Origin: Terebella lapidaria
Taxonomy: Eukaryota; Annelida; Polychaeta; Terebellida; Terebellidae
Length of the DNA: 64,000 nt
NCBI GenBank assembly: GCA_949152475.1
Contig: OX424557.1
Span: 25,295,462 to 25,359,461 of the forward strand
Direction of reading: 5' to 3'
The notes under the pieces are model-generated. The model was given only the letters and a program-made list of their open reading frames with translations. It was not told the DNA's origin and ran no database searches. Position numbers and translations under genes: made by a program. The first letter of the stretch is position 1. Every line of letters begins with the position of its first letter. Positions 1 through 25,698 of this stretch are shown here, piece by piece.

Positions 1-447
1 AGCCGGGGAAACCCACTTTCCCGGTGACATCAGCGCATTGCACCACACATTTAACCTATCACAACACCGCTTACACTTGGCGGGAAATTACACAGCCACA
101 TGGTCCCTCGGCCCCAGTCATCTGCGCAGTTGAGAAGTAGATGTCCAAGTGAACGGTCGCATCGTATATTGTACCAAGAAGAACGGCCGTAATCGCATAA
201 AAGGAATATAAAAGCTGATATAACGTGGATATATAAACTGTTGTATATATACAGAGGACTATAATATTTTGGATATTCGACTGGGAATCACCGACGTAGG
301 TGTGAGCGGCCCCGTTTGTGGTGTGAGTGTTATCATTGACATTATCGCCACAATAAACAGTTTGAATTGAACTGCCGGCTTGTTGGTCTGTAGCACAACC
401 TCACAGACATTCGGCCTGATACGGGCCAGTGAACCGTATTCTTCACA
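1..447 (+). repeat. 5' LTR, right-hand 447 bp
   Basis: This matches 12667-13113 base for base by eye. It ends in TTCACA just before a TGGCGCC primer-binding-like site. A TATA-like stretch (GCATAAAAGGAATATAAAAG, about 195-214) and an AATAAA at 352-357 are in the order expected for U3 promoter and R/U5 polyadenylation. By comparison with the 3' copy, about 309 bp of the left end lie outside the window. Confidence 0.93.
195..214 (+). promoter_or_regulatory. TATA-like core promoter of the LTR
   Basis: The sequence GCATAAAAGGAATATAAAAG carries two overlapping TATA-like boxes inside the LTR. The AATAAA at 352-357 follows about 140 bp later, so initiation after this site would place R between the two. 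The same sequence is in the 3' LTR. The start site itself is inferred. Confidence 0.5.
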
Positions 448-448
448 T

Positions 449-466
449 TGGCGCCGTAGACCAGGA
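449..466 (+). promoter_or_regulatory. Primer-binding-site-like sequence
   Basis: TGGCGCCGTAGACCAGG begins one base after the LTR end (CACA at 444-447). PBSs pair with the CCA-ending 3' tail of a tRNA and so start with TGG. I do not assign the tRNA. Confidence 0.6.
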
Positions 467-510
467 TCTGAGCTAGTCTCGGATCTTCGACCCAGACCTG
501 ACCGGCATTG

Positions 511-3087
511 ATGGCATTGGCCCCGGGAGCCTCCCGCGGTGAGCCACTCGACCCCACGGATGACGAAGTGACGATCAATCCGAATCCGGCCTTCCGACCT
601 TCCGGCTCTCGCTCAGTTGCCATGAGCGATACAGTTCCACTGTCGCAGGAGCAACAACCGTCCGGCCTTTTCGACTCCATCGGCGATCATTCGTCCCTGA
701 GATCGTTTTCGCCGCCTACCGACCTGGTGCAGGAGTTCCTAGACGAAGACCCGCTCGCGCCGTCACATACAGTAAGTGACATTCTGCGTGCACACGCTAG
801 AGCGTACTCGGCCACGCCGGCTAGAGCGACCCAGGAAAGTGACTTTGCCGACAGAAACTATACGCGCTCACGTCAAAGAGCGAGCGTAGATCGTGATATC
901 GACCCAGAACAATTAGCAGTGAACGTTCGGCCGGTAACCATAGACACGTCAATGGTTACGCACCCACCAAGTAACTCTCGGATACGACAGTGGGTTTGTC
1001 AGTCTGACAATGTTCCGGAATCGACCCCGCCGAACGCTTATTCGGCCAATCGACCCCTGGCGCCGTCCATGACGCCGAGACAACACGACCCCGCGCCAGA
1101 AATGTACTCACGCATACCGACCGAGCCTACGGTGGTAGAGTACACACGACCCAGCCAGACGGGAGCGACATCCGAAGACATCCTGGCGACGACCGTTACC
1201 CGGATCGCGACGCCGCTACGACAACAACGACCCAGCGACACGATGACGGAATCTCGCGCCACCATGCGACAAGCGCGACCCCGACAAGCACCCTCGACAT
1301 CAAGTCGCCGACCCTGCGACCCCGACACGCCGACTTCCGATACACGCGCTCCCGCGCCGACCACGCACCGACCATCGCCGACTACCGGAGAACAACCGCG
1401 CTTCGATCCGTCGCAAGATCAAGTTGTGTCTGCTCCGGCAGAAAGTGTTGTGCCAATGATCGGACCTCCGATCTCACAATCAGTCGGAAACACCAACGGA
1501 TATGGTGTACCGCCAGTCGGATACCCTGGCGCAACAAGCGGTGTTCCAAATGGAGTAGCTGTCGGATACTATTCACCGCATGTCGGCTACGCGAACCCAC
1601 CGCCTGGATATGGTGGCGTTCCCAGCGTGATAGCTGACACCGGCTATCATGGTGCACAACCCGGATTAGTGTACCATGGTGTATGCCCAGATGGATCGGT
1701 ATACCGATATCCACCACCGGCTGTATTCCCACCCTCAGTCGGGATACCATGGGTGACGCCTCCATACAGTCAACCGGCCCCCGCTGCACAAGCACCACAC
1801 GACCCCAGTCACACGACGGCACCACCCGCCGCATCGCTCGCCGTCTCCGCGACGACAGCACCGACCGCCCCCGCTAACGCGACCCCGATCAACCCAGATA
1901 CGACGGCTCCGGCGACTTCGGCTGTTCCGACTCCGACGGCCACTGCAGCGACTACACCAGTTGCAGTGAGTGTTGACACGCCCACGCCACAGAGACTCAC
2001 GTCTGAGCCCCAAACGTTGGCTACGGCTAAAATGGCTCAATGGCGTGCGACCTTCAAGGAGGGCAATCTCACTCAATACATTCGGAGTTTCGAACAATTC
2101 ACTGCGGCTTTTACTTACTCCGACCTCAACAAGACGACGACCTTCCGGAGCACGCTACGCGGCCGCGCTGAAGCGCTAGCCCTAAATATCCCGGTCGCGA
2201 CTCCCTGGGGAGAGTTCCGTCGCCAACTCCTAGAGGGCTGGGAACCCGAGCCCCGTCGACAGTCCAAACGGGACGATTTCCCGTTCCTCAAGCGGGAACG
2301 AAAAGAGGACGCGGAACACTACATGGAGCGACTCCAAGCCCTGGCGGAGCAAGTGTTCGATGACGTTACGCCAACGTCGCGGCAACGAACTGTAATTGCA
2401 CAATTCGTGAACGGCCAACCCGACCCCATTGCCGATAAACTGTGTGCCCTCACTTTTAACAGTTACAGTGAGGCACTGACGGCCGTTCTCAAGGTAGAGA
2501 GTCGTCAGCAGAGGACAGCCAGAGATCGACATCGAGGCACACGACGTGCTGACATTTCCGCAAGCGGATACGCGGAAGACGACCCTGTCAATGAAGAACT
2601 GTCCTGTGCCATGGGACAAGTTACTCAGGGGGAAACACTAACCCCAGAACAAATTGCGGCCTACTACGACCCCGCGGACAGTGACACTACCGGCCTACAA
2701 GGGTGCGACGAACACTCAGTGCCGACCAGCTCACGCGAGTGGGTGGCTGAAGCTTTCCAGTGCGTCCTTAGTGACGAGAATGGACTATGCGAGGAAACGG
2801 CTATCTTTTCTGTCCTGCGAACAACGGCCCCGATGAAAGGTGATCGACCCCCGCAACCCGGACGACCCATGGTTTGCTTCTTTTGCAAGAAGCCCGGCCA
2901 TCGCTGGATGCGGTGCTTTCGGCTTAAGGATGTGCTAGTACGTAACGGCATGAAACCGCTAGCATTTCGGCCTAATGGTCCCGGTACTGACAGAAGGACA
3001 GCTCAAGTGTTGTCAGTACCTAACCAAACCGGTAACCAAACTAAACCGGCCCCACCAACACCTCCGACCCCGTCGTCAAACCAGTAG
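511..3087 (+). CDS. gag: Gag polyprotein of the LTR retrotransposon
   Basis: The protein has 858 residues from the ATG at 511. An upstream TTG codon is in frame but is not a likely start. The first ~500 residues are Pro/Thr/Ser-rich and look disordered, with a Gly/Tyr/Pro-rich patch. A retrotransposon Gag capsid-like region follows at about residues 507-680 (TFKEGNLTQYIRSFEQF onward, ending in the helical LTAVLKVESRQQ). A CCHC zinc knuckle (CFFCKKPGHRWMRC) lies at about residues 789-802 and would bind genomic RNA. Gag assembles the virus-like particle. The length is above the usual for the group because of the long N-terminal low-complexity region. It ends in TAG, overlapping the Pol frame by about 60 nt. 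Confidence 0.92.
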   Translation: MALAPGASRGEPLDPTDDEVTINPNPAFRPSGSRSVAMSDTVPLSQEQQPSGLFDSIGDHSSLRSFSPPTDLVQEFLDEDPLAPSHTVSDILRAHARAYSATPARATQESDFADRNYTRSRQRASVDRDIDPEQLAVNVRPVTIDTSMVTHPPSNSRIRQWVCQSDNVPESTPPNAYSANRPLAPSMTPRQHDPAPEMYSRIPTEPTVVEYTRPSQTGATSEDILATTVTRIATPLRQQRPSDTMTESRATMRQARPRQAPSTSSRRPCDPDTPTSDTRAPAPTTHRPSPTTGEQPRFDPSQDQVVSAPAESVVPMIGPPISQSVGNTNGYGVPPVGYPGATSGVPNGVAVGYYSPHVGYANPPPGYGGVPSVIADTGYHGAQPGLVYHGVCPDGSVYRYPPPAVFPPSVGIPWVTPPYSQPAPAAQAPHDPSHTTAPPAASLAVSATTAPTAPANATPINPDTTAPATSAVPTPTATAATTPVAVSVDTPTPQRLTSEPQTLATAKMAQWRATFKEGNLTQYIRSFEQFTAAFTYSDLNKTTTFRSTLRGRAEALALNIPVATPWGEFRRQLLEGWEPEPRRQSKRDDFPFLKRERKEDAEHYMERLQALAEQVFDDVTPTSRQRTVIAQFVNGQPDPIADKLCALTFNSYSEALTAVLKVESRQQRTARDRHRGTRRADISASGYAEDDPVNEELSCAMGQVTQGETLTPEQIAAYYDPADSDTTGLQGCDEHSVPTSSREWVAEAFQCVLSDENGLCEETAIFSVLRTTAPMKGDRPPQPGRPMVCFFCKKPGHRWMRCFRLKDVLVRNGMKPLAFRPNGPGTDRRTAQVLSVPNQTGNQTKPAPPTPPTPSSNQ
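3024..3087 (+). promoter_or_regulatory. gag-pol overlap, presumed -1 frameshift window
   Basis: The Pol frame is open from 3024 and the Gag stop (TAG) is at 3085-3087, so translation must shift by -1 (or +2) inside these 64 nt. The stretch is A/C-rich. I do not see a standard X XXY YYZ heptamer, so the slip site is unassigned. Confidence 0.55.
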
Positions 3088-6000
3088 GGGAAGGTGCTGA
3101 GGAGCAAGGACCTTCCAGACAACAGGACAACGTTCCCCGCTCCACATCTGCGGTTGTCACGACTACTGTACCGGTAACGACACCAATAACGACCCCGCAG
3201 CCGGCCCAGCCCACACCTCAGCTCCTTGAAGGGGTGTGTACAAAATGTCAAGCTCCGACCCAGAAATCGGCCTCTTTTCATGAAGGGGTGTCCGCACCGC
3301 GGCCACAACGGCCACCACGTGGAAACCGTCGTCCTGAAGGGGTGTCACCCCCGACCGCCAACGGCACCGGAACGGACAGCATGTCCGAGATCGAGTGGAT
3401 ATCCGACGACGGAGGATTCTACGCTTTTCCGAGTGGACCGGAATCCAAACTGCCGCCTCTTCACACACTCTTCCGGCCACCGCTAGACGACCCCGAAATT
3501 CCGGCTGTCATCAACAACTCCAGCGCCACCAATCACAAATGCTGGAAGTTGCCGGTACACGTCGGAAACAAGACGATAAAGGCTGTACTCGACTCCGGAG
3601 CGCAGATCTCCCTGCTCCGACGCGATCAGCTACGTCACGTCCCCGCTGACCAGCGACATTTGCGGTCTACTTCGGCTATTATTCGTGACGTCACCGGACA
3701 GTCGAGCCCGATCGATGGACTGATCGACCTTTCAATACAGGTCGGAACCAACCATATGGTCGTAACCTTTTGTGTGGCTGACATACATGACGACATGATT
3801 CTCGGCATGAACTTTTTTCGGCAAGCTCACGCTGTAGTGAATTACGGTGAAGGGACGATACAGGTACACAAAGAAATCCTGTTCGCACATAAAGACATTG
3901 AGGCCAATGTTGTCAGAATGGCCGTGCGACGAGCTGTCACCGTCCCCGCACGCAGCGAAGCAATAGTGGAGCTGGTCCCGACTTCCCGAGTTCGAGTTCG
4001 ACAACACCCGAGGATAGTCCAGCCACTTACGACCTTTCCCGAGGAAACCGACCTCATCATGGGGAGAACACTTACGACCCTGAATCGGCAGTGCGTAAAG
4101 GTGTCGGTAGTCAATCCAGCAGATACCGGCATTACGCTCACCCGTTCCGACCCTGTCGCCATAGCAAGCCCTGTCGAAAGTGTCGTCGGAGCTCTGCCAC
4201 GACCCGGAGAGGAGCCCGACCCGGCCACGGTAGACGCCAGTCATTACCGCGACCTACCGCCACATCTACAAGAAATGGTGGATCGCGCCGGACTAGCGCC
4301 GGAACAACATCGGCGTTGCGCCAACCTGGTTCACCAATACCAGGACACATTCATGCACCCAGACGGCCAACTGGGACGGACCCAAGTCGTCCAGCATAGA
4401 ATCGACACCGGCAACTCGGCCCTGATTCGACAACGACAGCAACGCGTCCCTCAGCCGCAGCAAAGCATCATCGACGAGGAGATCGACAAGATGCTCCGCT
4501 TGGGGTGTATTGAGCCGTCAGATTCGCCCTGGAGCGCACAGGTAGTGCTCGTGCGGAAGAAGAACGGACAAGTACGCTTCTGTGTCGACTATCGGCTCCT
4601 GAATGATGTCACCCGCAAGGACTCGTATCCCTTGCCCAACATTCAGGACACTCATGACGCCCTGGCAGGCGCCAACTACTTCTCGGCCCTAGACCTGGCC
4701 TCCGGCTACTGGCAGGTCGAAGTCGACCCCAGCGATAGACCCAAGACTGCCTTCGCCACAAGGAAGGGACTCTATCAGTTTAAGGTCATGCCATTCGGCC
4801 TTAGCAACGCCCCGGCAACCTTCGAACGGCTTATGGAGACCATACTCCGTGGTTACTTGTGGACCCGGTGTATGTGCTATCTCGACAACGTGATAGCTTA
4901 CGGCAGAACATTCGACCAGGCACTCGCAAACCTGGAAGCGGTCCTGGATCGAATCAGATCGGCAGGCCTGAAACTTCAGCCCAAGAAGTGTGAGTTATTC
5001 CAACGGGAAATCTTGTACTTAGGGTTCATAGTGAGCGGCCAAGGAATCCGAGTCGACCCCAACAAAGTTAAAGCCATCAGAGAATGGCCGACCCCGTGCG
5101 AGATCACCGACGTCAGGGCTTTCCTTGGTTTCGCCAACTACCACAGGCGATTCATCAAGGACTACGCTGAGATCGCTGAACCTCTCGTAGCGCTTACCCG
5201 AGGTGAATGCCACTTCACTTGGGGACCGGCCCAGCGACGAGCTTTCCAGCGACTCCGCGACGCCCTCATCAAGGCGCCCAAGCTCGCTCATCCGACCCAG
5301 GATCCGGAGGACTACTTCATCCTCGACACGGACGCAAGCGGCTTTGCTGTGGGAGGTGCCCTCTCACAAAGGGTTAACGGGAAGGAGATCCCCATCGGGT
5401 TCGCCAGTAAAACCCTGTCCCGGACCCAGCGGAACTATTGCACCACCTATCGGGAACTACTGGCAGTAGTTGAGATGGTGCAACACTATCGGCACTACCT
5501 CTGGGGTAGGAAATTCCTCCTCCGGACCGACCATAGCTCGCTAAGGTGGCTGAAAAACTACAGCGACGCCGACGGCATGCTCGCTAGGTGGCTCGCCAAG
5601 CTACAGCAGTATGACTTTCGGATAGAGCATCGACCCGGAAAACTACACGGTAACGCCGACGGCTTGTCACGGTGCCACAGTTGCAAACACCAAGACTGTC
5701 CCGGACGACTCGTCACACCTCCGACCGACCCAGAAACAAGTTCCAGAGAACTTCCAGTTCGTCGGATAACTGTTGTTCCGACCCAGACAAGGGCAGACCT
5801 CCTGGACAGTGATTCGATAACATCACCGGTCTTGCCCCAGCTAGTTTCGGCACGCCAAGTTGTTCGAGTCCGTGCTTTGGACGCCACACTTGATGGACAA
5901 AAATGGCTTTCGGACTATTCGACCCAGGACATTGTCGCGGCACAGCAAGCCGACCCCAGCGTCGGAAAAGTGCGGCAATGGATGTTAGCCGGCACCAAGC

Positions 6001-7619
6001 CCGACTCTAGAGAAGTCGCCCGCCAAGGAGAGGAGGTAAAGACACTTGTTTCCCGCTGGAACCTCCTGGCGCTACAAGACGGAGTGCTGGTTCGACATAT
6101 AAAACCTGACCCTGCTGGACGGCCTGTGGTGCAAACCGTGCTCCCCGTAGCACTCAGGACACAAGTTTTGCACCAACTACACGACCTCAAGATTGTCGGA
6201 CATCTCGGCATACAGCGAACCATCGAGAGAGTCAGGCGCCGATTCTACTGGCCCGGCTTGGCGCTGGACGTCGCCCGCTGGTGTGCCCGCTGCCCGCAAT
6301 GTGTAACCCGCAAGGGTAAACCGGCCCCAAAACGATCGCCCCTGACACAGCTACCGACAGGAGCGCCGTTCGACAGAATAGCGATGGACATCCTCGACAC
6401 CCACAAGATCACGGGAAGAGGCCATCGGTATGTACTAGTCGTGTCGGACTACTTTACGAAGTACACTGACGCTTTTCCGCTACGGCGACATACGGCCAAA
6501 AATGTTGCCGACACCCTGGTGAATCGGTGGATAGTCTACCACGGTGTCCCCAAAACGGTCCATAGCGATCAAGGTACTGAGTTTGAGTCGTCCCTGTTCC
6601 GGCATGTTGTGCGTCTACTGGGCGCTAAGAAGGTTCGTACGACCCCATACCGACCCCAGAGCGACGGCCAAGTTGAGCGATTCAACAGGACATTGCTCAA
6701 CATGCTGAGTGCGTTCGTCAGCGATCGTGCAAACGATTGGGACTTGCACCTGCCATATGTGTTAATGGCCTATCGAACCTCAGTACACTCGTCCACGGGA
6801 TGCACCCCGCATCTGATGGTGTATGGACATGAGTGTAACTTGCCAGTCGACCTCATGTTTCCGACCTACGACCCTGAGCCTCTACCTCCGTGTGGTCCGG
6901 AGTATGTGGAGTATTTGCGGCAAGCCATCAGGACGGCCCACGGTTTCGCCCAAGACCATCTCGAAAAAGCGGCAATTCGGCAAAAGATGGGTTATGACGC
7001 CCACGCAAAACCACGACCCCAGTTTCAACCAGGCGAACTGGTCCGGTATTATTATCTGCCACTCACGCAGAATAATAAGTTCGCTCGGCCCTGGACTGGT
7101 CCCTGGAGGATCATCGACCGTGTAACCGAGGTGGATTACCGAATCGCCCTGGTTTCCAACCCTCGGAACACTCGTGTTGTTCATCTGGATGTGCTCAAGC
7201 CATACGAAGGTGACAACCAAGCGGCCCACATCTACTCCGACCCTGTACGACCCACGTCGTCGTCAAGCAAGTCCGACCCAGAACAGTCACCCGACCCTAT
7301 GGGACTTCTCAAGGAGTTCTATTACCCCTGGGAGGTAACAGTCCAAGATCGACATACTGAGTCAGACCAAACAGCAGAGTCTGATTCGCAAACGACCCAG
7401 GATCGTCAATCGCGATCTCCGACTTCATCCGGCTCAAGTCGACATCGGCAACGGAAAAGATCACACAGATCAAGTTCCGACACTCCAAAACCGGCACGCA
7501 AGACGCGCAGGCAAAAGCCTGTGGTATCTTCCGACCCTGAGACAAGCGAGGCTACGCCCCCGCCTGCACGACCAAATCGACCCAGACGCCACGCACGCAG
7601 ACCGGCCCGCTACAGATAA
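3024..7619 (+). CDS. pol: Pol polyprotein (protease, RT, RNase H, integrase)
   Basis: The frame is -1 relative to gag. It opens after a TAA at 3021-3023 and has no ATG near its start, so it is probably made by frameshifting in the 64-nt overlap; I see no classic slippery heptamer. Domains in order: aspartic protease (DSGA at about 3591, ILGMNFF about 3800); RT with first catalytic Asp in FSALDLASGYW (Asp codon 4692) and a YLDN motif at 4878-4889 where YxDD is normal; RNase H (LDTDASG, TYRELLAV, RTDHSSLRWL); integrase HHCC finger (6170-6305) and D,D35E triad (codons at 6387, 6567, 6675); GPW/Y chromodomain-free C-terminal module (GPWRIIDRVTEVDYRI); then a basic Ser/Arg tail. There is no internal stop. 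The Asp-to-Asn change in RT may make this copy inactive or may be tolerated. Confidence 0.95.
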
Positions 7620-9063
7620 CCCCGGCCTTGTTATCTGATTGATATCATTGATGATGAATTATGCATGTCTAATGGACTATGATATCATGTCTTTCCCAAT
7701 AATAATATATTATATTACAATAACAATATATGCATTTAACATGTACAAGATGTCAGTGAGGCAAACTCGATATATACACACTAGATATGATATTATAATT
7801 ATGATGCTGGTGAAAAATTGGTTGCATTATGATATGTGTTTCGACCCCGTATAACATGTACCATTGATCAAGGCGTATGTTACGCAATGACTAAGATTAT
7901 CATGTAAAGCTTCAATCCATGTGCCAGCCGAAGAGGATAAAAACCAGTCACACCGTGAGTAAGGCCACTTAGTTGTCGAAGAGGTGATAGTGTGATTCGT
8001 TCTGGAGTATGCGTCGACAGAGCCTCTACTCACTCCATGTAATATTCGGAGGAACGGCCCAGTGGTACGTGAACCAGTCACTACATAGCTATCATGCCAA
8101 GATGCGGCCTGTCATCAAATTCATCACCCAAAATATTCAAAGCGGTGTGACCGACCCAGATCATTGCAATTTCGACCCCTACAATAATTGCGGCCCCGTC
8201 GTCCTGTGAACTGGCTGAAAATGAATGGAACGATGTCCGCCCCTGTGAGTGATTGATATTCATATCTCAGCCTTTAATAACTGTGTGTCGTCTGTGAAAC
8301 AGCAACTCGACCCCGTAGTTTATTGTGCGCTAATTTGTGGGAGAAGGAACGATAGACTGATTAGTTCACAAGGCACGCACGAGCGCTAATAAACATTTTA
8401 GCTGTTTACAGCACCTACATGAAGTCTCCCCTGCTAAAGACAATAGTGAGTCGTCGGGCAAAAAGAGCCCAGTAATTCGAACAGTCGACTAGTATAAATA
8501 GACAATGATTCGGCACGAGTTATCCAGGGGACGGCAGATGGACATACGGAAATCTGGACAGTGTGAGGGCACCCCTACTGTCGTAATGGACTGACCCAAG
8601 AGGTCAGAGAAGGATCGCTCTGCGTTTCCTTGACGACGGCCCCGCCTTGCTGTGTGTACGCTTGGAACAATGATACATAGCGTAAAGACGTTTTCTATAC
8701 AGATAGAGAGCGCCCCCCGGCCCAGTTCTAAGAATCGAGATGCTGTCAGCATCTTTGTGTACGGCATTGAAGATTAGCGGCAATCAGGTCACTCGCGCCT
8801 GAGACTTTGGAGGAGAAGGACTATTGTCGAAAGTTTCGGATTACCAGAATACAGACTAGTGATACAGAGACTGTGCTAATCGAACAATAATTATCGGCCT
8901 ATAAACTGTGACATTGTATAAATCCTGGTCACAAGACTTTGGAGTTAATTCGGCTTTGAGTATCGGCATTTGAACTAGGCTGGTTTTGAAGAAATCCGGA
9001 CTTTGTTACAACCAGCCTAGTCAGTACTTGGGAAGTACTTCGGCTTGATTTCGGCCCGTCAGC
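7620..9063 (+). other. Inter-ORF spacer of the LTR retrotransposon
   Basis: This is 1.4 kb between the Pol stop and the third ORF. The first 240 bp are strongly AT-rich; the rest returns to the element's usual composition. No credible coding region is present. About 11 copies of CGRCCC occur here although the stretch is non-coding. It probably holds the signals (splice acceptor or internal promoter) that express the downstream ORF, but I could not pin one down. Confidence 0.6.
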
Positions 9064-11862
9064 ATGGCTGACAAACCCGGAGACGACCGGGAAAATAACG
9101 ACCCAGGTGATAATCGGCCCCGCACAGTCAAGTTGGACGGCGATAACATCACCGTCCAAGTAATCGACACCGGGGATGAATCGGATCATCCTATAGTCGT
9201 CCCCGACAACGAAGCTTCGTCCGGCCCCGACTCGCAGCCTGAGCAGCGCGATCCAGTCACGCTCAGTTACACGGCAAGTGGTTCGGAGAAGGGAGCACGA
9301 CCCAAAACGGCCCGGAACAAGCTGGCGCAACGAGGAGAGCGCCATACACCGAGCCCGACTCCGGACGACATTTTTAATATCGACCCCGAACGCTTCCGCC
9401 GACTCGAGGAGGGCGGAAGTATCGTCCAGCGTGCGATTGAGGCACGACAAGCGGCCCAAGAGGCTCAACGAGTCGCCACGGCGAGCCGCCAACCCGACCC
9501 AGCAAATCAGGTGATCGCCCCGATCGCTCCGGCCCCGACTTCACCCGCTTCCAGTTCAGCGGTAGCACGACCTGCGGCCTCCCGTTCTCCAAACAAGAGA
9601 ACTTATACTTCTTTTAAGAAGAAACATGGAGCGGGAGCCCGATCGACTTCTAGCAGTTCGTCGCGCTCTAGTGGCGGATCTGCTGTTCCGGCCCCGACCT
9701 CGACTTTCCGTCGGCAAGTGGCGGAATTGATGGAATTGGTGCCACCTCCCGTGATGCCTTACGGAACTCGGCCCATAGACTGGAACAAGGTTCCACTCAG
9801 CAAACGGAATCGGAGCGCTGGATACGGCCATATCCACAACTTCGATGAACAGTCGACCCTGTCGGAGGGAAACCTCCTCACGTTGGCTCCGCTACAGCGT
9901 GGAGACGGTCGCTACGAGTGCCCCTTCTGCATCGGCGAAGAGGAAGGAGCAGGAGTGCGACAGTGGTCCTCCGTGCCACGACGCGGACCTTTCCGGACGG
10001 CCCAGAGTCTCGACGCGCACGTACTAGCGTACCACTTTCCGTTCTTACGCTACTTCGTGTGCCCGGCCCGCGACGGCTTCCGGACATTGGCCCAGGAGGA
10101 GATGTTCCGGCACCTGTCCCAAGCGACCCCGCAACACGTGACGTCGTTTCCGTTCTACCAGGAGGGACGACTATCGGCATCCGGCCCCATGCTCGTCAGG
10201 TTCGCGCTACGCTGCAGAGTCGACATGCAGCCGAACCCGAATTATCGACCCCCAAGAGTTCCGGCTAACATCCCGATCTTCAGGAGGGATGTTAACACAG
10301 TCCTGACATTCGGCATTTGGCACATGGCGCCAGAGCTCTTTGAGCAGTATCCGCCCAACTCGGCCCCGGAAGTGCAACAGGTACTCCGTCGACTAGAGTA
10401 CAATCGTGCTTCGACCCCGGCAGACGAGATTCGGCTTACCCGCATGGTCAGTGACATTGAGACCATGAATACGCGGGTTCGAATTCGACGACCCAGCACG
10501 ATTTTCTTCGTCCGGCCCATAAATTACCAGACAACATCGGTGAGCACGGCGGAGGAGGTCCCGACAACGACCACCGGTGTTTCGGCCTCAGCAGTCGTCA
10601 CGACGGCTTCGTTCGCGACAGTGGCATCGCCAGCGACAACCCGACCGGTCACCACAGTGACATCTTCGACCCCGTCTAGAGCTCGGCCTTCGGATATTAT
10701 ACCCAGGCGGATGGTTGTGGAGCGACCCACGGCCTCTAACGTCACGGACTACCGAGTCCGTGAGGGATTGATCCCTCCACCTGAGGAGTATCCGCCACTC
10801 CCAAGTCGGCCCCTGAATACCACACCGGTATCGTCATCAACCGGCAGGGAGACTCCTGAGCCAAAGAGTCCAGCTGAGGATCGGCCGCCTCCACTCAGGG
10901 AGATTGCACCCGGATCTCCTGTACGTGCGTCCCCGACACAGTTTTCGACCCCGGAATCCTCACCAGAGCCGTCACGACGGATGGTGGAACCCGTCCCGCT
11001 CCCGCCGTACCTCACGGAGGAAGTGGAACCTCTGTGCTCCGTCCCAACACGCGGCACTGATAGAGATCGGCCCCGACTCCAAGTGGACGACCCGGAGCAG
11101 CTTGAGTCGCTCCACAGGGACCTCGACGAGCGTCTCCCGTTTCATGGGTCCGGCGAGTTTGCGGCCGACTTTCAATTCCTGCGGCAACACGGCAGACGTT
11201 TGGCGACTCGTTCGCTTCCCGGCCTGCAGGCGCTACCCGGCCAGAACCCCGACCTCACGGACTTCCTACGGGATGAGGACGCTCAGCGGCTCCCGAACTA
11301 CCTCGGGTTCCATGAAGATTTTTGGACGGCCCGCCTTGAACAGGCCGCCCATAATGCCGACCCCTTGCTTCTGCCGTCAGAACCGGAAGAGCATTTACCG
11401 ACCCTGGCTCTCGCTCGCGCTGACGACTTGGCGCACCAATACTTACGGCTGATACGTCGGGAGTACTTGTCGGCCCTGGACCATCACATCAGACAGGCAG
11501 AGTACAACGGCCTGTCTGTCGGCTTTGGGATGGGCGCCCTACATGAGCGCCACCAGCCCACGTTCCCGGACGCCCTGTCCGAGGAGAATCTTCGGCTCCG
11601 AGTTCGCGTGACTCAGTTGGAGGATCGGGTTGCTAACCTCCAACAGGAAAACGCTCGGCTCCAAGCAGCATCGACCCCAACTACTCCGGAAGCAACAGCT
11701 CCGCCGACCCCGACCACACCGACCATTCCGGGGGAGCTTTTGGCCACAATTGTGTCCATCCTGCCAAGGTTACCCCCGGATGAGCAGTTGCAGCTCATGC
11801 GGCAAGCTTCGCCAGCGGCCCCGCCTCCTCCCGCCAGCAGGCGTGAACGGGAAGAGAAGTAG
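9064..11862 (+). CDS. ORF3: unknown protein with C2H2-like finger and coiled coil
   Basis: This is a 932-residue ORF in sense orientation, 1.4 kb after pol, where some Metaviridae carry env. It is not env-like: I see no signal peptide, transmembrane segment or furin-like site. The N-terminal ~200 residues are acidic then Ser/Ala/Pro-rich. A finger-like C-x2-C-x29-H-x4-H (CPFC at residues 286-289, HVLAYH at 319-324) sits in a better-ordered region (about 220-430) with a further Cys and His after it. Residues ~500-650 are Pro/Thr/Ser-rich. A helical region follows, and a leucine-zipper-type coiled coil lies near 838-880 (LRVRVTQLEDRVANLQQENA). It is fully open, as are gag and pol, so it is likely functional. 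Nucleic-acid binding is inference. I do not recognise the family. Confidence 0.85.
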   Translation: MADKPGDDRENNDPGDNRPRTVKLDGDNITVQVIDTGDESDHPIVVPDNEASSGPDSQPEQRDPVTLSYTASGSEKGARPKTARNKLAQRGERHTPSPTPDDIFNIDPERFRRLEEGGSIVQRAIEARQAAQEAQRVATASRQPDPANQVIAPIAPAPTSPASSSAVARPAASRSPNKRTYTSFKKKHGAGARSTSSSSSRSSGGSAVPAPTSTFRRQVAELMELVPPPVMPYGTRPIDWNKVPLSKRNRSAGYGHIHNFDEQSTLSEGNLLTLAPLQRGDGRYECPFCIGEEEGAGVRQWSSVPRRGPFRTAQSLDAHVLAYHFPFLRYFVCPARDGFRTLAQEEMFRHLSQATPQHVTSFPFYQEGRLSASGPMLVRFALRCRVDMQPNPNYRPPRVPANIPIFRRDVNTVLTFGIWHMAPELFEQYPPNSAPEVQQVLRRLEYNRASTPADEIRLTRMVSDIETMNTRVRIRRPSTIFFVRPINYQTTSVSTAEEVPTTTTGVSASAVVTTASFATVASPATTRPVTTVTSSTPSRARPSDIIPRRMVVERPTASNVTDYRVREGLIPPPEEYPPLPSRPLNTTPVSSSTGRETPEPKSPAEDRPPPLREIAPGSPVRASPTQFSTPESSPEPSRRMVEPVPLPPYLTEEVEPLCSVPTRGTDRDRPRLQVDDPEQLESLHRDLDERLPFHGSGEFAADFQFLRQHGRRLATRSLPGLQALPGQNPDLTDFLRDEDAQRLPNYLGFHEDFWTARLEQAAHNADPLLLPSEPEEHLPTLALARADDLAHQYLRLIRREYLSALDHHIRQAEYNGLSVGFGMGALHERHQPTFPDALSEENLRLRVRVTQLEDRVANLQQENARLQAASTPTTPEATAPPTPTTPTIPGELLATIVSILPRLPPDEQLQLMRQASPAAPPPPASRREREEK

Positions 11863-12350
11863 GCTCGGCCCCGAACTGTTCGGCCCCTTTGATGCGGCCC
11901 AGTGGTGACCGACCATCCTGGTCACAGGTTTATTTGTGTAAATAGTTGTATATATATTCTCTCCTAGTCACGGCATTCCGTTTTGATACATGTAATTTAG
12001 TTAAGTTTAATCACCATTTTTATTCCAGAGATGAACTTTATAGAGTGATTTTTTCCATTCTACTAGAGAATGTCGAGGAGTTTCGTTTATACATTCCATT
12101 CCATTCTTCATCAGTCATTGTTGTGCATGTATTTGTATATGTATCATCGTAGAGACTGCTGACAGACTGACTGCTGACGTTTATTTTGACAGTTAGGAAT
12201 TTTTATTGTATGAAGTGTTTTCGCATTTCGCGCGGCGTGTGTGTGTGAGTGTTTTTGGGTTTGACCTTTAGGACTGCTTAGCTCTTTTATTGTTTAGTTT
12301 TTGGCGACGGTAGGGTCCGGGGAGGGTAATTCCGAGGGCGTAGAATTAAT
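11863..12350 (+). other. 3' untranslated part of the LTR element
   Basis: This is non-coding DNA between the ORF3 stop and the polypurine tract. It starts with three CGGCCC copies, then becomes T-rich (about 11930-12300). No gene or structural RNA was recognised. Confidence 0.6.
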
Positions 12351-12357
12351 GAAGGGG
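12351..12357 (+). promoter_or_regulatory. Polypurine tract
   Basis: GAAGGGG lies immediately before TGTTATGTAG, the inferred first bases of the 3' LTR. Plus-strand DNA synthesis of Ty3/gypsy elements is primed from such a tract abutting the LTR. Confidence 0.7.
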
Positions 12358-13113
12358 TGTTATGTAGTAATTTTAGCGACTGTTACTCCCGTCCCTCCCG
12401 CGCACTACACATTTCCACAACAAACATTCATTCTACATGACTTACATACAGGACAGGTACACACTATACGATCACAAGCATAAACTCCACGTAGTCATGG
12501 TTACACACACAGGTCAAACCACGCACCTGCGGCCCCGCTAGTTCAGTACACTCGGCCCCGTTTACTCGACCTTGACCTTCACATGCACTGACTTCTAAAC
12601 ATAGAACTTGACACACATACTCCACACATCACGTGCACAGATACAGGCATTACAAGTATTGACACGAGCCGGGGAAACCCACTTTCCCGGTGACATCAGC
12701 GCATTGCACCACACATTTAACCTATCACAACACCGCTTACACTTGGCGGGAAATTACACAGCCACATGGTCCCTCGGCCCCAGTCATCTGCGCAGTTGAG
12801 AAGTAGATGTCCAAGTGAACGGTCGCATCGTATATTGTACCAAGAAGAACGGCCGTAATCGCATAAAAGGAATATAAAAGCTGATATAACGTGGATATAT
12901 AAACTGTTGTATATATACAGAGGACTATAATATTTTGGATATTCGACTGGGAATCACCGACGTAGGTGTGAGCGGCCCCGTTTGTGGTGTGAGTGTTATC
13001 ATTGACATTATCGCCACAATAAACAGTTTGAATTGAACTGCCGGCTTGTTGGTCTGTAGCACAACCTCACAGACATTCGGCCTGATACGGGCCAGTGAAC
13101 CGTATTCTTCACA
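12358..13113 (+). repeat. 3' LTR, 756 bp
   Basis: It begins TGTTATG after the purine tract and ends TTCACA, giving the TGT...ACA ends normal for LTRs. The last 447 bp equal window positions 1-447. The right end is fixed because the two copies diverge at exactly this point: primer-binding-like TTGGCGCC in the 5' copy, host CATTGAAG here. The left end is inferred from the purine tract and TG. TATA-like boxes lie near 12861-12880 and AATAAA at about 13018. Confidence 0.88.
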
Positions 13114-14092: not shown

Positions 14093-14755
14093 TAGGCCTT
14101 ACGTTGTGTAAGATATATTCAGCTGTCGTGGTGCTGATGATGTGCTCAAGCTCTAATGTCGTCTTCCGCAGTTTGCTGCATTTTCTTGTTGAACAATTTT
14201 AATGTGTGTATACTATTTTACAAACGATTTATAATGTAATTGTCCTCAATTCATGATTCGATAATATTTATCTTTTGTTGATATCAGTAAAAATAAATCA
14301 CTGTTCATGACTTTCTGGTTGACTTTCCAACCGTTGTCCTATGCTACATATGTCACATGTCGAGATGAAGAGATTTCCACGCGATGTGCCAAAATATCCG
14401 AAGCGAACAGCATAATATACTAATATACTAATGACATTTGAGGTGTTTATTAGCTGAACACGCCTTTAGGGTGCAATATTATCTTGGATGTTATAGAATC
14501 ATCAAAAAATTATTGGTGATTTTAGTGAGTGTACTTACCTGAACAACAGTAGCAACACTTCCAGTTTTCCCCTGATTATCCAAATGTTCTGGCGCTAACT
14601 GGATGATTTTTTTAGGGTGGGCACCCAAAGTTTGGTAGAATAAAAAAAACGAATTTCTGCAGTTTACGGTGGCTGATATATGCCATAGTTTTATTTTTCA
14701 GATTTCATTTATTTATTTTTTCCAGATGGACATTCTAAAGAAAATAAAATATTTA

Positions 14756-14938
14756 AATTCACGTACTTAATGTTAAATACGCGTACTTAATATTAAATAC
14801 ACATACTTAATATTAAATACACGTATATAATATTAAATACGCGTATATAATATTAAATACGTGTACTTAATATTAATTACGCGTACTTAATGTTAAATAT
14901 GCATACTTAATGTTAATTACGCGTACTTAATATTAAAT
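14756..14938 (+). repeat. 20-bp minisatellite array (forward)
   Basis: About nine units of a 20-bp AT-rich motif, YRCGTACTTAATATTAAATA, with variation mostly at the YR CG TR positions. Confidence 0.85.
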
Positions 14939-15040
14939 TAGCAAACATTGGATGTGGTTATGTTGCTGTGTATGGCTTGTGAAACAAGGTATGTATCAAG
15001 CGACATGGCGCTGCAAAAAAATAAAATATCTAACTGTCTG

Positions 15041-15470
15041 GTATTTAATATTAAGTACGTGTATTTAACATTAAATACACGTATTTAATATTATATATGT
15101 GTATTTAATATCATGTACGTGTATTTAATATTAAGTACGCATATTTAATACTAAGTACACGTATTTAATATCAAGTACATGTATTTAACATTAAGTACGC
15201 ATATTTAATATTAAATACACGTATTTAATACTATATACACATATTTAATATTAAGTACGCATATGTAATACTAAATACGCGTATAAAACATTAAGTACGC
15301 ATATTTAACAATAAATACACGTATTTAATATTATATACACGTATTTAATATTATGTACGCATATTTAATATTAATTACGTGTATTTATCATTAAATACGC
15401 GTATTTAATATTAAGTACGCGTATTTAAACATTAAATACGCGTATTTAATATTAAGTACGTGTATAACAT
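15041..15470 (-). repeat. 20-bp minisatellite array (reverse)
   Basis: About 21 units of TATTTAATATTAAGTACGTG, the reverse complement of the forward unit, giving an array-scale palindrome with 14756-14938. Confidence 0.85.
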
Positions 15471-15805
15471 GCGTCTGGAAAATATCGTAAATAAATGAAA
15501 ACTAAAGAATAAAACTATGGCATATATCAGCCACTGTAGCAGTTTAATATGTAGTTTCTACAGTGGCTGATGTATGCCATAGTTTTATTCTTTAGTTTTC
15601 ATTTATTTACGATATCTTCCAGACGCATGTAATACACGTACTTAATATTAAATATGCGTACTTAATGTTTAAATACGCATACTTAATATTAAATACGCGT
15701 ATTTAATGATAAATACACGTAATTAATATTAAATATGTGTACATAATATTAAATACTTGTATATAATATTGAATACGTGTATTTATTATTAAATACGCGT
15801 ACTTA

Positions 15806-18800
15806 ATGTACGTAATGTACGATGAATGTAATTTTGATTATAATGTTGATTTTACTTATACAAAAGATGTAAATATTTTCAATCGGTTCAGTGCATTATA
15901 TTGCCTGGACGACATAGATTTTAATAATCATGATAATGATACATCTTGTGATCGATGTGATGAACCGTCTGATAATGTACAAATTGATTGTCCAGTTAAT
16001 ACAGAGGTTCACAGCGTTAATTCTGACATCAGGGTCAATGACATGTATGGGGCTGCTTTCAGTCGTAATGTGTCGAATGAACTACAAAATTCAAACAAAT
16101 CCGATATTGCTCAGTCATGTATTATACATGACGATATTGAACTAAAAGAATTGGTTCCATTCTGTAAGAAATATTCCAGATGTCTCAAAGTGTCACATAT
16201 TAATATAAATAGTGTCAGACACAAATTTGATCCTCTGAAAGAGGCTCTTGTCAAAGGATATGTTGATTTGATGTTTGTTCAAGAAACAAAATTAGACGAT
16301 TCATTTCCAGTAAATCAATTTCATGTTCCAGGATTCAAACATTATAGATGTGATTATAAGCATAATATGGGTGGAATCATGGTGCATGTCCGCAACGATA
16401 TTGTCCACAAAAGACGTGATGATCTCGAAATCAACACAAATGAAAATGGCAGAGTTGAAAGTATTGCCATACAAATAGTTATCAATAATGAAAAATGGCT
16501 CTTTGTAAGCCTGTACAAGCAGCCTAAAGTTCCAGATAATTATTTTAGCAATATTGTGGAATCTATGTATCTGAGCTGCAACAAAGAATTCACCAATATA
16601 GTGTTCACTGGTGATTTCAATGTTGATTTCTCTAAATCAGGCCATTGTCTCATTGATTTTTTAGATATCTATGGTATAAAAAATATTGTGAAAACACCTA
16701 CATGTTTCAAAAGTTCTAAGCCCACATGTATTGATGTTGTGATGAGCAATGCATATAAGCGCTTGCAGGGTGTAATAGTATTTGATACTGGTCTCAGTGA
16801 TTTTCATCATATGGTTTCATTTGCCACCAAAATTCATATTCCATCCAGTAAACCGAAGAAAATTGTTTACAGAAGTTTCAAACATTTTGATGAAACTGAA
16901 TATATTGATGATTTATTTAAGGCACCTTTTCAGGTTGCTGAAATTTTTGATGATGTTGATGATGCATATTGGTTTTGCGAATCTTTATTGAGTGAAGTTA
17001 TTGAGAAACATGCCCCTTGTAAAAGCAAAACCATAAAGCATTCACAAGTGCCGTACATGAATAGCCAATTACGGCGAGCAATTAACTTCAAAAATATGTT
17101 GAGACGAAAATATGAAAAGCACAGGACAAATCAAATCTGGGAAAAATATAGGAAGCAGAGGAATCTAGTTGTAAAAATGAGAAAGCAAAGCCTTGCAGTA
17201 TATATGAAAACCAAATGCAAGGTAGAGAAAGATTCCAAAACATTCTGGAAAACAATTAAGCCCCTTATATCTGATAGATCCGGTGTTGGGAATGACCGAA
17301 TTATGCTGTCTGAAGAAGAAAATCTCATAACTAATCCTGTGGCTGTTTGCACAACACTTAATGAATTTTACAATACTATTGCAAATACTGATAACTCTGT
17401 TGCAATTGTCAGAGATGATCTGAATGATGGATGCCAACACGGGGAACATAATATTTATAATATTTTGCGACATTTTGATGATCATCCCAGTATTTTAAAA
17501 ATACTTGCTTCACGGGATGTCAATAACATATTTGAATTCAAAAAAGTTTCTATTGATGATATTCATAAACAGTTATGCAAGCTTAATCCTTCCAAATCTA
17601 CCGGATATGACATGATTCCACCCAAATTATTGAAGTTGGGAGCTGAGGCTCTCTGTATACCTTTTATGTTCCTAGTCAATGAAAGTATTACATCCGCTAC
17701 TTTCCCAGCTGCATTGAAATATGCTGATATAATTCCTTTGTTCAAGAAAGGTGATATTCTCTCGAAAGAAAATTATAGACCAGTCAGCATTTTGTCAAGT
17801 ATATCTAAACTGTTTGAAAGAATCCTGTTTGAACAGATCTCTAATTATTTTGAGGGTGAATTTAGTATTTATGTATCTGGATTCAGAAAAAGTCATTGTT
17901 GTCAAAATGTTCTGACTCGATTTGTTGAAACAGTCAAATGTAAGCTTGATAATAAGGAAGTTGTTGGAACCGTTATGACAGATTTATCCAAAGCTTTTGA
18001 TCATTTGCCTCATGATTTGTTGATAGCTAAAATGAATGCTTACGGAGTGAATATTCATTCATGTAACTTACTTCTGAGCTATTTTCAGGATAGATTCCAC
18101 AGAGTAAAAATGATGTCTAATGTTAGCGGGTGGCTACCACTTAATGTTGGAGCACCCCAAGGATCAATATTGGGGCCTTTCTGTTATAATGTCCATTGTA
18201 ATGATTTGATGTTTGATATTGAGAATGAATGTGATGTTTTTAATTATGCTGATGATAATACAATATGCTGTTATGGCAAAAATAATGATGAGGTGAAGAC
18301 AAAACTACATCATATAATATCTAAATTATTAAGTTGGTTTGATGATAATAACATGAAAGTTAATTGCAACAAGTTTCAATATATGTTATTTGGAAATGGT
18401 TATAACCAAGATGACTCCATTGTAATTGATGGCAACACTATTCGTGCACAAAAAACTGTTAAGCTATTGGGTGTATATTTTGATGTAAATTTGAATTTTG
18501 ACTACCATGTGCAAGAAATATGTAAGAAAGCAGGAAGGAAATTGAATGTTTTACGTAGGCTGTCAAGAAATCTAAATGAACAAAATAAGATGCTTCTATT
18601 TCACTCATTCATATTATCAAACTTTGAATATTGTTCTATTGTGTGGCATTTCTGTAGTAGGGGTAACATGGCAAAAATTGAAAAACTGCAAAAGCAGGCT
18701 TTAATATATGTGTACAATGATCATGATTCTAACTATAGTTCCCTAAGACGTAAAGCAGCTATCCCACTCATGTATGTAAGGAGATTGAGGTGTATTTTAT

Positions 18801-19096
18801 TAGAAGTATACAAATGTGTCAATAAGTTAAGACCCAGCTATTTACATGATATGTTCGTATTAAAAAATGTACCTTACAATAGGCGTAATATATTACAGGT
18901 GCAACAACATAAATATAGAACAGTCAAAAATGGATTAAATACGATTATGTATCAGGGCAGTAAACTTTGGAATTCGCTTGAAAATGATATCAAAGATGTG
19001 GGATCTCTCACGGCCTTTAAAAGGAGAATTAATATGTGGCAGCCACCAGAATGTAATTGTTCATGTTGTGTTCTATGTCATCTAAAGCAAGTGTAA
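15806..19096 (+). CDS. Endonuclease/reverse transcriptase of a non-LTR retrotransposon
   Basis: This is an intact 1,096-residue ORF. The first ATG lies on the minisatellite junction; the fourth codon (ATG at 15815) is an equally likely start. After ~125 poorly conserved residues comes an APE-type endonuclease (HININSVRHKFDPL; FVQETKL; FTGDFNVDF; TCIDVVMSN; GLSDFHHMV with the catalytic-type Asp-His). A linker follows, then the RT: YRPVSILSSISKLFERIL, SGFRK, MTDLSKAFDHL, GAPQGSILGPF and YADD at residues 814-817. The C-terminus has a short Cys-rich tail (CNCSCCVLC). It nicks target DNA and copies its own RNA there. The jockey/CR1-like supergroup is likely; the clade is not assigned. Confidence 0.92.
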   Translation: MYVMYDECNFDYNVDFTYTKDVNIFNRFSALYCLDDIDFNNHDNDTSCDRCDEPSDNVQIDCPVNTEVHSVNSDIRVNDMYGAAFSRNVSNELQNSNKSDIAQSCIIHDDIELKELVPFCKKYSRCLKVSHININSVRHKFDPLKEALVKGYVDLMFVQETKLDDSFPVNQFHVPGFKHYRCDYKHNMGGIMVHVRNDIVHKRRDDLEINTNENGRVESIAIQIVINNEKWLFVSLYKQPKVPDNYFSNIVESMYLSCNKEFTNIVFTGDFNVDFSKSGHCLIDFLDIYGIKNIVKTPTCFKSSKPTCIDVVMSNAYKRLQGVIVFDTGLSDFHHMVSFATKIHIPSSKPKKIVYRSFKHFDETEYIDDLFKAPFQVAEIFDDVDDAYWFCESLLSEVIEKHAPCKSKTIKHSQVPYMNSQLRRAINFKNMLRRKYEKHRTNQIWEKYRKQRNLVVKMRKQSLAVYMKTKCKVEKDSKTFWKTIKPLISDRSGVGNDRIMLSEEENLITNPVAVCTTLNEFYNTIANTDNSVAIVRDDLNDGCQHGEHNIYNILRHFDDHPSILKILASRDVNNIFEFKKVSIDDIHKQLCKLNPSKSTGYDMIPPKLLKLGAEALCIPFMFLVNESITSATFPAALKYADIIPLFKKGDILSKENYRPVSILSSISKLFERILFEQISNYFEGEFSIYVSGFRKSHCCQNVLTRFVETVKCKLDNKEVVGTVMTDLSKAFDHLPHDLLIAKMNAYGVNIHSCNLLLSYFQDRFHRVKMMSNVSGWLPLNVGAPQGSILGPFCYNVHCNDLMFDIENECDVFNYADDNTICCYGKNNDEVKTKLHHIISKLLSWFDDNNMKVNCNKFQYMLFGNGYNQDDSIVIDGNTIRAQKTVKLLGVYFDVNLNFDYHVQEICKKAGRKLNVLRRLSRNLNEQNKMLLFHSFILSNFEYCSIVWHFCSRGNMAKIEKLQKQALIYVYNDHDSNYSSLRRKAAIPLMYVRRLRCILLEVYKCVNKLRPSYLHDMFVLKNVPYNRRNILQVQQHKYRTVKNGLNTIMYQGSKLWNSLENDIKDVGSLTAFKRRINMWQPPECNCSCCVLCHLKQV

Positions 19097-19235
19097 ATGT
19101 ATCATCTTCACTGTATATATCTCATTCCTCATTGTAAATATCTTGTCATGTCGGTTAATAGCTGAATTCAGCTAATGTTCATGTTATGTGTCTTACCCGA
19201 CGTTAAATAAAGTTTTATCTTATCTTATCTTATGT
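15806..19235 (+). mobile_element. Non-LTR retrotransposon inserted in the minisatellite
   Basis: It runs from the array junction near 15806 to a 3' tail with AATAAA (about 19205) and a short TCTTA repeat (19215-19233), after which the 20-bp array resumes. Microsatellite-like 3' tails are typical of CR1/L2/Rex-type elements. There is one long ORF and no separate ORF1. The 5' end coincides with the ORF start, so the copy may be 5'-truncated. Confidence 0.8.
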
Positions 19236-19785
19236 TAAATACGCGTACTTATTATTACATATGCGTACTTAATATTAAATGTATGTATATGATATTAAAT
19301 ACGTGTATTTAATATTAAATACCCGTACTTAATGTTAAATACTTGTATTTATTGTTAAATACGCGTACTTAATATTAAATACGCATACTTAATATTAAAT
19401 ACACGTACATAATATTAAATACACGTATATAATATTAAATACGTGTATTTAATGTTAAATACACGTACTTAATATTAAATACCAGACAGTTAGATATTTT
19501 ATTTCTTTTTGCAGCGCCATGTCGCTTGATACATACCTTGTTTCACAAGCCATACACAGCAACATAACCACATCCAATTTTTGCTAATTTAATATTAAGT
19601 ACGTGTAATTAACATTAAGTATGCGTATTTAACATTAAGTACGCGTAATTAATATTAAGTACACGTATTTAATATTATATATGCATATTTAATATTATAT
19701 ACGTGTATTTAATATTAAGTATGTGTATTTAATATTAAGTACGCATATTTAACATTAAGTACGTGAATTTAATTATTTTATTTTC
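19236..19785. repeat. Continuation of the 20-bp arrays and core of copy 2
   Basis: Forward units run from about 19236 to 19485, then the inverted ~105-bp core, then reverse-complement units (about 19590-19770). Confidence 0.8.
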
Positions 19786-20469
19786 TTTAGAATCTCCATC
19801 TGGAAAAAATAAATAAATGAAATCTGTAAAATAAAACTATGGCATATATCAGCCACCGTAAGTTTCTCATAGTGCGTAATGAATAAAAAAAATACCGTAT
19901 ATATGATACTAGATCTAGCTACAGGCCATGTATTCAAATGAACCATTATAGTATGTTCATACCAATGTATAGAGTGCAGTTGTGCACCTTTAAGCAGAAT
20001 ATCAGAATAAACATGTTACCAACCCTTATTTCATTGTGTAATGATGTGTCCTAATTGGACGTACAAAACTATTGGATAGTAAATGTAACCATGATGCTGC
20101 TGAAGTGACAATGCACTTGATAACAGCTCTTCTGTTCCATCCATCTTTGTCCTATACACAGCACATCTATCGGTCTGCAACATTAATATATAATGAGTAT
20201 TTGTTGGGGATATAACGCGGGACCGGAATATATGTGTGTGCAACCCTGGATAAGCGTGGGTGGCATGTAAGAATGCCATTTCGCAATCTGTATTTGATTT
20301 CCATGTCTAGACAATCAGAGATGTCGCCAAAACAGAAACAGGGCAAAGAAAATTTGGCACACAGATTCAAAGAATGCACACTGAGAAAACAACAGTGGCT
20401 GATAAGTGACATTGTAAAAAAGTACTTATTTACTTCTCGAAGTAATCGTGACTGATACATAGTTAACAT

Positions 20470-25442: not shown

Positions 25443-25698
25443 CAATTATTAACTAATTAATATGTTGACAATGTATAATAATATGAAGACTGGTTAGGTT
25501 ATGGCTATAACCTACATTTCATATTCAATGAGAATTTGGAGATAAATTACCAATCAATGAAACCTGCATACAATTATTAACTAATTAATATGTTGACAAT
25601 GTATAATAATATGAAGACTGGTTAGGTTATGGCTATAACCTACATTTCATATTCAATGAGAATTTGGAGATAAATTACCAATCAATGAAACCTGCATA
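25443..25698 (+). repeat. 128-bp tandem duplication
   Basis: Two head-to-tail copies start at CAATTATTAACTAATTAATA (25443 and 25571). The same pair occurs at 30858-31113 in copy B, so it predates the 3.3-kb duplication. Confidence 0.9.

Follow-up and report, generated by a model that had tools for sequence, protein, structure and literature searches.

How a retroelement recognizes its own RNA is usually put down to a single localised signal for packaging or export. In the Arabidopsis VANDAL elements, according to the passages cited, the VANC21 motifs stand in one orientation and mainly in non-coding DNA, originate from tandem repeats and are bound in the form of duplex DNA, and related VANDAL families carry different motifs (PMC5735166). 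Single-stranded RNA viruses are described in the cited text as having multiple dispersed packaging signals, which are stem-loops sharing a loop motif (PMC6281560). The Ty3/gypsy element Cer1 of Caenorhabditis elegans encodes in its third open reading frame (ORF) the protein CERV, which, in the sections of the report cited, is needed for the export of unspliced genomic RNA and is characterized by a cysteine-rich loop, a potential leucine zipper and little similarity to other proteins (PMC10309623). The locus compared here with these systems lies in the annelid Terebella lapidaria, in a stretch of 64,000 nucleotides (assembly GCA_949152475.1, contig OX424557.1, positions 25,295,462 to 25,359,461), below called the window, the first part of which (1..13113, plus strand) is a Ty3/gypsy-type long terminal repeat (LTR) retrotransposon with 111 sense-strand and 0 antisense copies of the hexamer CGRCCC, where R is A or G.

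Abundance and form of the CGRCCC word

The original prediction, made from the letters of this DNA, had counted about 68 CGACCC and 42 CGGCCC in the element and neither of the reverse complements, and the recount gave 68 CGACCC, 43 CGGCCC, 0 GGGTCG and 0 GGGCCG, while the rest of the window (50.9 kb) contains the word 6 times forward and 7 times reverse. Its estimate of roughly three of each by chance was too low, as base content predicts 6.3 CGACCC and 6.4 CGGCCC, dinucleotides 9.6 and 5.6, and codon-preserving shuffles of the three frames 16.2 and 7.7; the observed excess holds against all these expectations. Overall, the original observation is real and goes further than had been described.

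The reading frames contain 90 of the 111 words, and all three codon frames hold words, as had been stated, in fact in each of the three ORFs. In 1000 codon-preserving shuffles of the three frames 23.5±4.1 coding words were obtained (maximum 40), and in 150 shuffles in which protein, codon usage and dinucleotides were all preserved 25.0±3.7 (maximum 35), so that the codon-preserving shuffle suggested as a check does not reach similar counts. Silent choice allows CGRCCC at 155 places, of which 90 are filled where codon usage predicts 23.4. The reverse word fills 0 of its 42 protein-allowed places (4.0 expected), and its count of 0 in the frames compares with 4.1 in codon shuffles and 3.8 when dinucleotides are also kept. 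In the non-coding set of 2,901 nt (5' leader, both spacers, 3' untranslated part and one LTR) 19 words were found, the mean of 1000 dinucleotide shuffles being 1.17 and the maximum 6, and words occur, as claimed, in the LTR, the spacer and the 3' untranslated part. According to these data the claim that protein or codon selection alone cannot explain the word holds good. For frames and non-coding parts combined, the reverse word is found 0 times against about 4.6 expected.

The density of the word is about 1 per 118 nt and the words are randomly spaced (coefficient of variation 1.04). Effectively the word is 8 nt long, since CGRCCC is followed by C or A in 88 of 111 cases and the next base is G in 73 of 111; the full 8-mer is commoner in non-coding words (15/19) than in coding ones (40/90; Fisher p 0.010), that is, more frequent where the protein imposes no constraint. 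One-change neighbours, among them AGRCCC, GGRCCC, TGRCCC and CCRCCC, are depleted to 0.2–0.4 of the shuffled expectation, a depletion which spans several positions and is not of one change type. A stem-loop with CGRCCCCG as a two-pair tetraloop was considered and set aside, as the eight varying flank pairs show the pairing expected from shuffling.

Selection on the word among copies and lineages

The word is under purifying selection for its own sake, on the sense strand, at coding silent sites as well as in non-coding DNA. The genome (761.6 Mb, 438 contigs) was searched for copies of the element, and the ORF3 search yielded 49 scored loci of 3415 first-look candidates, all 97–100% identical and 42 of 49 without internal stop, which argues for a large and recently active family. 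The comparison set for ORF3 comprised 30 loci (L020-L049, where L020 is the window's own copy), over which ORF3 evolves under protein constraint. Fourfold-silent differences from the window were found in 22 of 1530 cells in the core, i.e. the five fixed positions of the word, and in 1404 of 14940 outside it; thus the conservation at synonymous sites which had been put forward as a check is observed. The cells are not independent, because the copies are related, and the R position of the same words is the control that shares this relatedness: it varies freely (30/270).

The non-coding words of the 29 other copies differ at any one fixed position in 0–1 of 460 cells, at a background of 5.5%. For the G at +7 there are 6 differences in the 693 cells for which the reference reads CGRCCC-H-G and 29 in the 231 others. 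Changes at the R position comprise 37 G>A, 1 A>G and 1 G>T. The 33 fixed-position changes consist of a single variant at 11327, which is shared and accounts for 16 of them, and of 17 singletons; 14 of these singletons are C>T or G>A, the kind of change expected from decay after insertion.

Copy L018 (88.2% identity across ORF3 plus the 3' part) keeps 36 of 38 words, where control 6-mers are kept in 54% of 1430 cases and C-rich CpG controls in 62% of 144, and copy L019 (90.6% identical) keeps 37 of 38 against 65% of 1581 controls. Silent-site changes within words and outside them amount to 1/53 and 177/780 in L018 and to 1/55 and 125/823 in L019, the R position being changed in 2 of 9 cases in both. 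Copy L017, with 3 of 4 words kept against 51% of controls, lends no help, and a seven-copy comparison over 5738-8749 is not decisive (12 variable motif columns, 17.5 expected). Loci L009-L016, L050-L053 and L057 were found via a pair of words and are biased at that site, and five of ten variant-pattern matches (L054, L055, L056, L058 and L059) had no part of the element present.

In the diverged lineages, ORF3 of L062 (protein 73.6% identical) keeps 12 of 19 words against 13.7% of controls, with 16 words in the aligned part and 17 in total against 4.4 in shuffles. ORF3 of L060 (63.6% identical) has 8 words against 2.8, a number reached in 3 of 1000 shuffles; 3 of the 8 are at the same place as in the window and most are elsewhere. 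All 7 words of the 3' non-coding part are kept in L061 and L062 (controls 49–50%). In pol the words are kept in 25 of 32 cases by L053 (89.3% identical; controls 54%) and in 25 of 25 by L051 (81%), and on the ORF1 side L057 keeps 23 of 23 (82%). The reverse word was found 0 times in each of the aligned segments of relatives (pol, ORF1 side and 3' part). Three comparisons do not help: L060 keeps 1 of 7 words of the 3' non-coding part (controls 34%), yet has 4 words of its own there; L052 keeps 28 of 32 pol words at 85% of controls; and the poorly aligned N-part of ORF3 in L053 has 0 of 15 words at the same place.

When a metagenomic pol relative was used to search the genome, 32 matches at 61–62% were scored, and L063 and L064 were compared via one 1.5-kb piece each. 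The pol DNA of L064 is 88.8% identical to that of the window and carries 7 words where 1.9 are expected; each of the 7 also occurs among the 11 of the window (controls 51%). Since L060-type ORF3 places adjoin L064-type pol matches in several cases (e.g., C3:30.95 Mb, C3:7.98 Mb and C11:8.62-8.63 Mb), the two types are probably one family with a thinner word set. In L063 the pol protein is 89.0% identical over 500 amino acids and the DNA 73.8%, and CGRCCC is absent as an excess (2 against 1.8 expected); 1 of the window's 11 words is at the same place, which is of no help either. It follows that the word is family-specific and is not a by-product of the protein. The original prediction had named related copies lacking the motif as a case against itself, and L063 is such a case in part, while the evidence of selection inside the word-bearing families is left intact. 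In an open test the top word of the L063 piece is CGRACT, found 9 times against 0 in reverse and 2.4 expected, with 0 of 250 shuffles reaching this number. Its score of 4.8 (window CGRCCC over the matching stretch, 4.9) is not significant after correction, the best of all words in shuffles averaging 3.4 and going up to 6.6, and CGRACT is considered a lead, not a result.

The word as a general property of gypsy pol is ruled out by eight distant relatives (32–46% identical) that do not have it. In one of them, L001, CGACGC was found 15 times against 3.0 in codon shuffles; with dinucleotides kept, a shuffle that covered L001-L004, the null rose to 7.5 (z score 3.8) and the candidate was dropped. 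At the protein level none of 25 metagenomic pol relatives has an excess of word-allowing places (z scores from -3.5 to 1.3; element 3.2), and scans of viral contigs revealed no relative of the element.

The divergence of pol and ORF3 is unequal in L051, L052, L053 and L060-L062 (pol DNA 89–97%, ORF3 protein 51–77%), as if ORF3 with the 3' part had been exchanged between lineages or evolved fast. One copy (L015/L017) has a pol about 97.5% identical, seemingly no ORF3 and a diverged 3' end (83%); it is probably a non-autonomous derivative, though the part not seen may be located in a gap between the pieces compared.

Anatomy of the element and its surroundings

The features of the element are collected in Table 1. 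Its assignment to Ty3/gypsy follows from the order of Pfam domains in ORF2 (RVT_1 440-600, RT_RNaseH 690-793, Integrase_H2C2 971-1027 and rve 1045-1141) and from direct LTRs with TG...CA ends, the primer-binding site and polypurine tract being assigned by position only. The start of the 3' LTR at 12358 is marked by the purine tract followed by TGTTATGTAG, and in copy L057 the 5' LTR starts at the matching position, which backs this boundary; the left edge of the window's 5' LTR is outside the window. The insertion appears young because all 447 bases present of the 5' LTR are identical to the 3' LTR end. Scans with Rfam and for tRNA gave no matches. Self-comparison of the element revealed the LTRs, one 48-nt inverted match and nothing else.

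Neither ORF1/Gag (no Pfam match) nor ORF3 (no Pfam match over the curated cut-off, and no relative in either of two protein searches at E 0.001) was recognized by the searches made. The motif in ORF1 is taken to be a zinc knuckle according to the CCHC consensus. The C2H2-like finger of ORF3, which Pfam does not recognise, is retained in the diverged copy L053. Parts of ORF3 and Gag were also modelled, and the resulting structures are too poor for use (predicted local distance difference test, pLDDT, 30.6 and 38.7).

Table 1. Features of the retrotransposon in window coordinates
Feature	Position	Strand	Remarks
5' LTR	1..447	+	truncated on the left by the window start; words at 109 and 307; 447/447 bases as in 12667-13113
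Probable tRNA primer-binding site	448..466	+	begins TTGGCGCC, abuts the LTR; label inferred from position, without a tRNA match
ORF1, Gag	508..3087	+	22 words in the frame; first ATG is codon 2
Gag CCHC zinc-knuckle	2875..2916	+	CFFCKKPGHRWMRC, read off the translation; candidate reader
ORF2, Pol	3234..7619	+	protease, reverse transcriptase, RNase H, integrase; 34 words
Pol-ORF3 spacer, non-coding	7620..9063	+	9 words, 7 of them full 8-mers
Examples of non-coding words	8152..8198	+	CGACCCAG at 8152, CGACCCCT at 8173, CGGCCCCG at 8191
ORF3	9064..11862	+	932 amino acids; 34 words; candidate reader
C2H2-like finger of ORF3	9919..10035	+	CPFC at amino acids 286-289, H319, H324, then further C333 and H
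Coiled-coil-like stretch of ORF3	11584..11691	+	amino acids 841-876; sub-threshold bZIP/TSC22 Pfam matches
3' untranslated part	11863..12357	+	3 words directly after the ORF3 stop: 11866, 11881, 11895
Probable polypurine tract	12343..12357	+	GAATTAATGAAGGGG; label inferred from position
3' LTR	12358..13113	+	756 bp, TG...CA; 4 words: 12530, 12553, 12775, 12973

Downstream of the element, at 14664-19861, an ORF of the long interspersed nuclear element (LINE) type with an endonuclease/exonuclease domain and a reverse transcriptase (15806-19096) lies between long inverted arrays of 20-bp tandem repeats, where 14664-15029 pairs with 19496-19861 at 96% and 15288-15539 pairs with 15558-15809. An identical 128-bp unit stands in two perfect tandem copies at 25443-25698 and again at 30858-31113, 5.4 kb apart. 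Between 33000 and 50000 AGGTCA (48 forward, 29 reverse) and TCAAGG, which we take to resemble nuclear-receptor half-sites, are very frequent and are partly inside tandem repeats of 127–147 bp, e.g., at 40061-41382. Other coding pieces are a PLAT domain piece (PF01477) at 50597-51052 on the minus strand, a fragment of an otopetrin-family protein (PF03189, E 7.8e-15) at 56378-57385, and an open frame at 62931-63998 on the minus strand, which has no Pfam match at E 0.01 and resembles a tyrosine recombinase. The otopetrin and PLAT pieces are in keeping with an animal host.

Candidate readers of the word and known systems

The reading preferred here, to which about an even chance is given, is that the word may serve as a linear single-stranded address on the element RNA, which a protein encoded by the element would read over the whole length of the RNA, with ORF3 as the leading candidate and Gag as the next. 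The RNA would carry about 100 CGRCCC-(C/A)-G words randomly scattered over the transcript, and a protein made by the element would bind them along the RNA, marking it as belonging to the element so that it is coated, exported from the nucleus or packaged. ORF3 with its C2H2-like finger and coiled coil would be the most likely reader, and if the reader bound multivalently, as a dimer or oligomer, this would account for density mattering and spacing not. Reading as RNA is suggested because the word has the orientation of the transcript in every copy examined and its reverse is avoided; in this respect the earlier proposal that strand-specificity suggests recognition on RNA or on one DNA strand stands in its RNA part, as the one-sidedness fits the reading of single-stranded RNA. 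An element-encoded reader is suggested by the family-specificity of the word inside one genome. Of the two candidates ORF3 is preferred to Gag, since the seven-base specificity exceeds what a single zinc knuckle is known to recognize, and also since the third-ORF protein CERV of Cer1 is needed for genomic RNA export; the choice between the two is uncertain.

Several observations weigh against this address on RNA and its assignment to ORF3. As ORF3 has no detected relative and a model with a pLDDT of 30.6, its role is guessed from sequence, and Gag, encoded by the same RNA and provided with a CCHC knuckle, is the protein that ordinarily binds the genome. In L053 the divergence of ORF3 with its finger goes down to about 54% while the word is unchanged, which a co-evolving reader need not do. 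The density of words in the ORF3 part equals that in gag and pol, so the unspliced RNA is not singled out. The predicted unpairedness of the words, 0.507, is only slightly above the 0.441 of words of the same composition, and their flanks lack a pairing signal. A reader of double-stranded DNA is also conceivable, since VANC21 sites are likewise in one orientation.

Among the alternatives, the words may be read by the Gag nucleocapsid as signals for packaging or assembly scattered over the RNA, a linear equivalent of those of RNA viruses. This is rather doubtful, although Gag contains the knuckle, the words span the entire genomic RNA with the LTR included, and dispersed packaging signals are an accepted model in the text cited (PMC6281560): the known signals are stem-loops with degenerate loops, whereas here the covariation of flank pairs equals the shuffled expectation, and the word is far denser and stricter than those signals. 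A host RNA-binding protein, acting in RNA stability, in the export of RNA that is intronless or unspliced, in entry into germ granules or as a licence that protects from silencing by small RNAs, appears unlikely. The sense-strand, position-independent spread over the whole transcript suits export or licensing marks, and export elements are known in naturally intronless mRNAs; however, the word is family-specific, the sister family L063 of the same genome does not have it, and host flanks are without excess (3 forward and 4 reverse words in 11.4 kb beyond the ends of three copies).

Anti-silencing at the DNA level, with an element protein binding the integrated double-stranded DNA as in VANDAL/VANC, is a long way from probable. 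The motifs targeted by VANC21 are short and densely set and share one orientation according to the cited passages (PMC5735166), ORF3 has a C2H2-like finger, and the word contains CpG, with a CpG ratio of 1.09 of expectation in the element against 0.72 elsewhere in the window. Nevertheless the strand bias is 111 to 0 without tandem repeats, the words occupy coding silent sites in all frames while VANC21 motifs are mostly outside coding DNA, and a duplex reader has no cause to avoid the reverse word. Hardly credible is a mutational or compositional by-product of strand-biased editing, codon bias or low-complexity protein: the sense strand is indeed C-rich (3892 C, 3300 G), but the codon and dinucleotide nulls miss the count by 17 standard deviations, the core is conserved at silent sites with the R position of the same words free, and the one-change neighbours are depleted at several positions and not via one change type.

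If the address on RNA is accepted, the identity mark would be spread over the whole RNA, strong enough to dictate silent codon choice and visible by eye. Because many near-identical copies and several diverged lineages share one genome, the word offers a direct and testable way to the reader protein and to the question whether related elements switch words to stay apart. Tentatively, each family of the clade might have its own linear word as a self-versus-other RNA code by which the families sort RNAs: CGRCCC-C/A-G in the window family and, thinner, in the L060/L064 lineage, and CGRACT in the L063 family, the word filling most protein-allowed silent places and being read by the family's own third-ORF or Gag protein.

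In the open-licence literature no dispersed or over-represented strand-specific retroelement motif like the CGRCCC word was found. The CAR-E export elements of naturally intronless mRNAs are likewise short linear RNA elements in sense orientation and several copies; these copies are few, belong to host mRNAs and have a different consensus. Cer1 is similar by description in having a third ORF, and the cysteine-rich loop and potential zipper of CERV recall the finger and coiled coil of ORF3, which however sit elsewhere in the protein; in the cited sections of the report no dispersed recognition word is described on Cer1 RNA (PMC10309623).

The VANDAL parallel drawn in the original prediction is sustained as to arrays in one orientation and not as to coding location, tandem repeats or the double-stranded DNA bound by VANC21. 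In the passages available both systems have a short, dense, family-specific motif in one orientation and a rapidly changing element protein (PMC5735166), while VANDAL is a DNA transposon with duplex binding and non-coding tandem repeats and the present element is an LTR retroelement, where 90 of 111 words are in frames and self-comparison gives no tandem repeats. With the packaging signals, as far as described in the source cited, it shares many copies of one feature over the genomic RNA which co-exist with coding (PMC6281560), the difference being stem-loops there and a linear word here, in which no structure was detected, about one per 118 nt. Dispersed packaging signals and VANDAL/VANC are the closest kinds, and the element, while departing from each in a tested feature, is taken to work like them.
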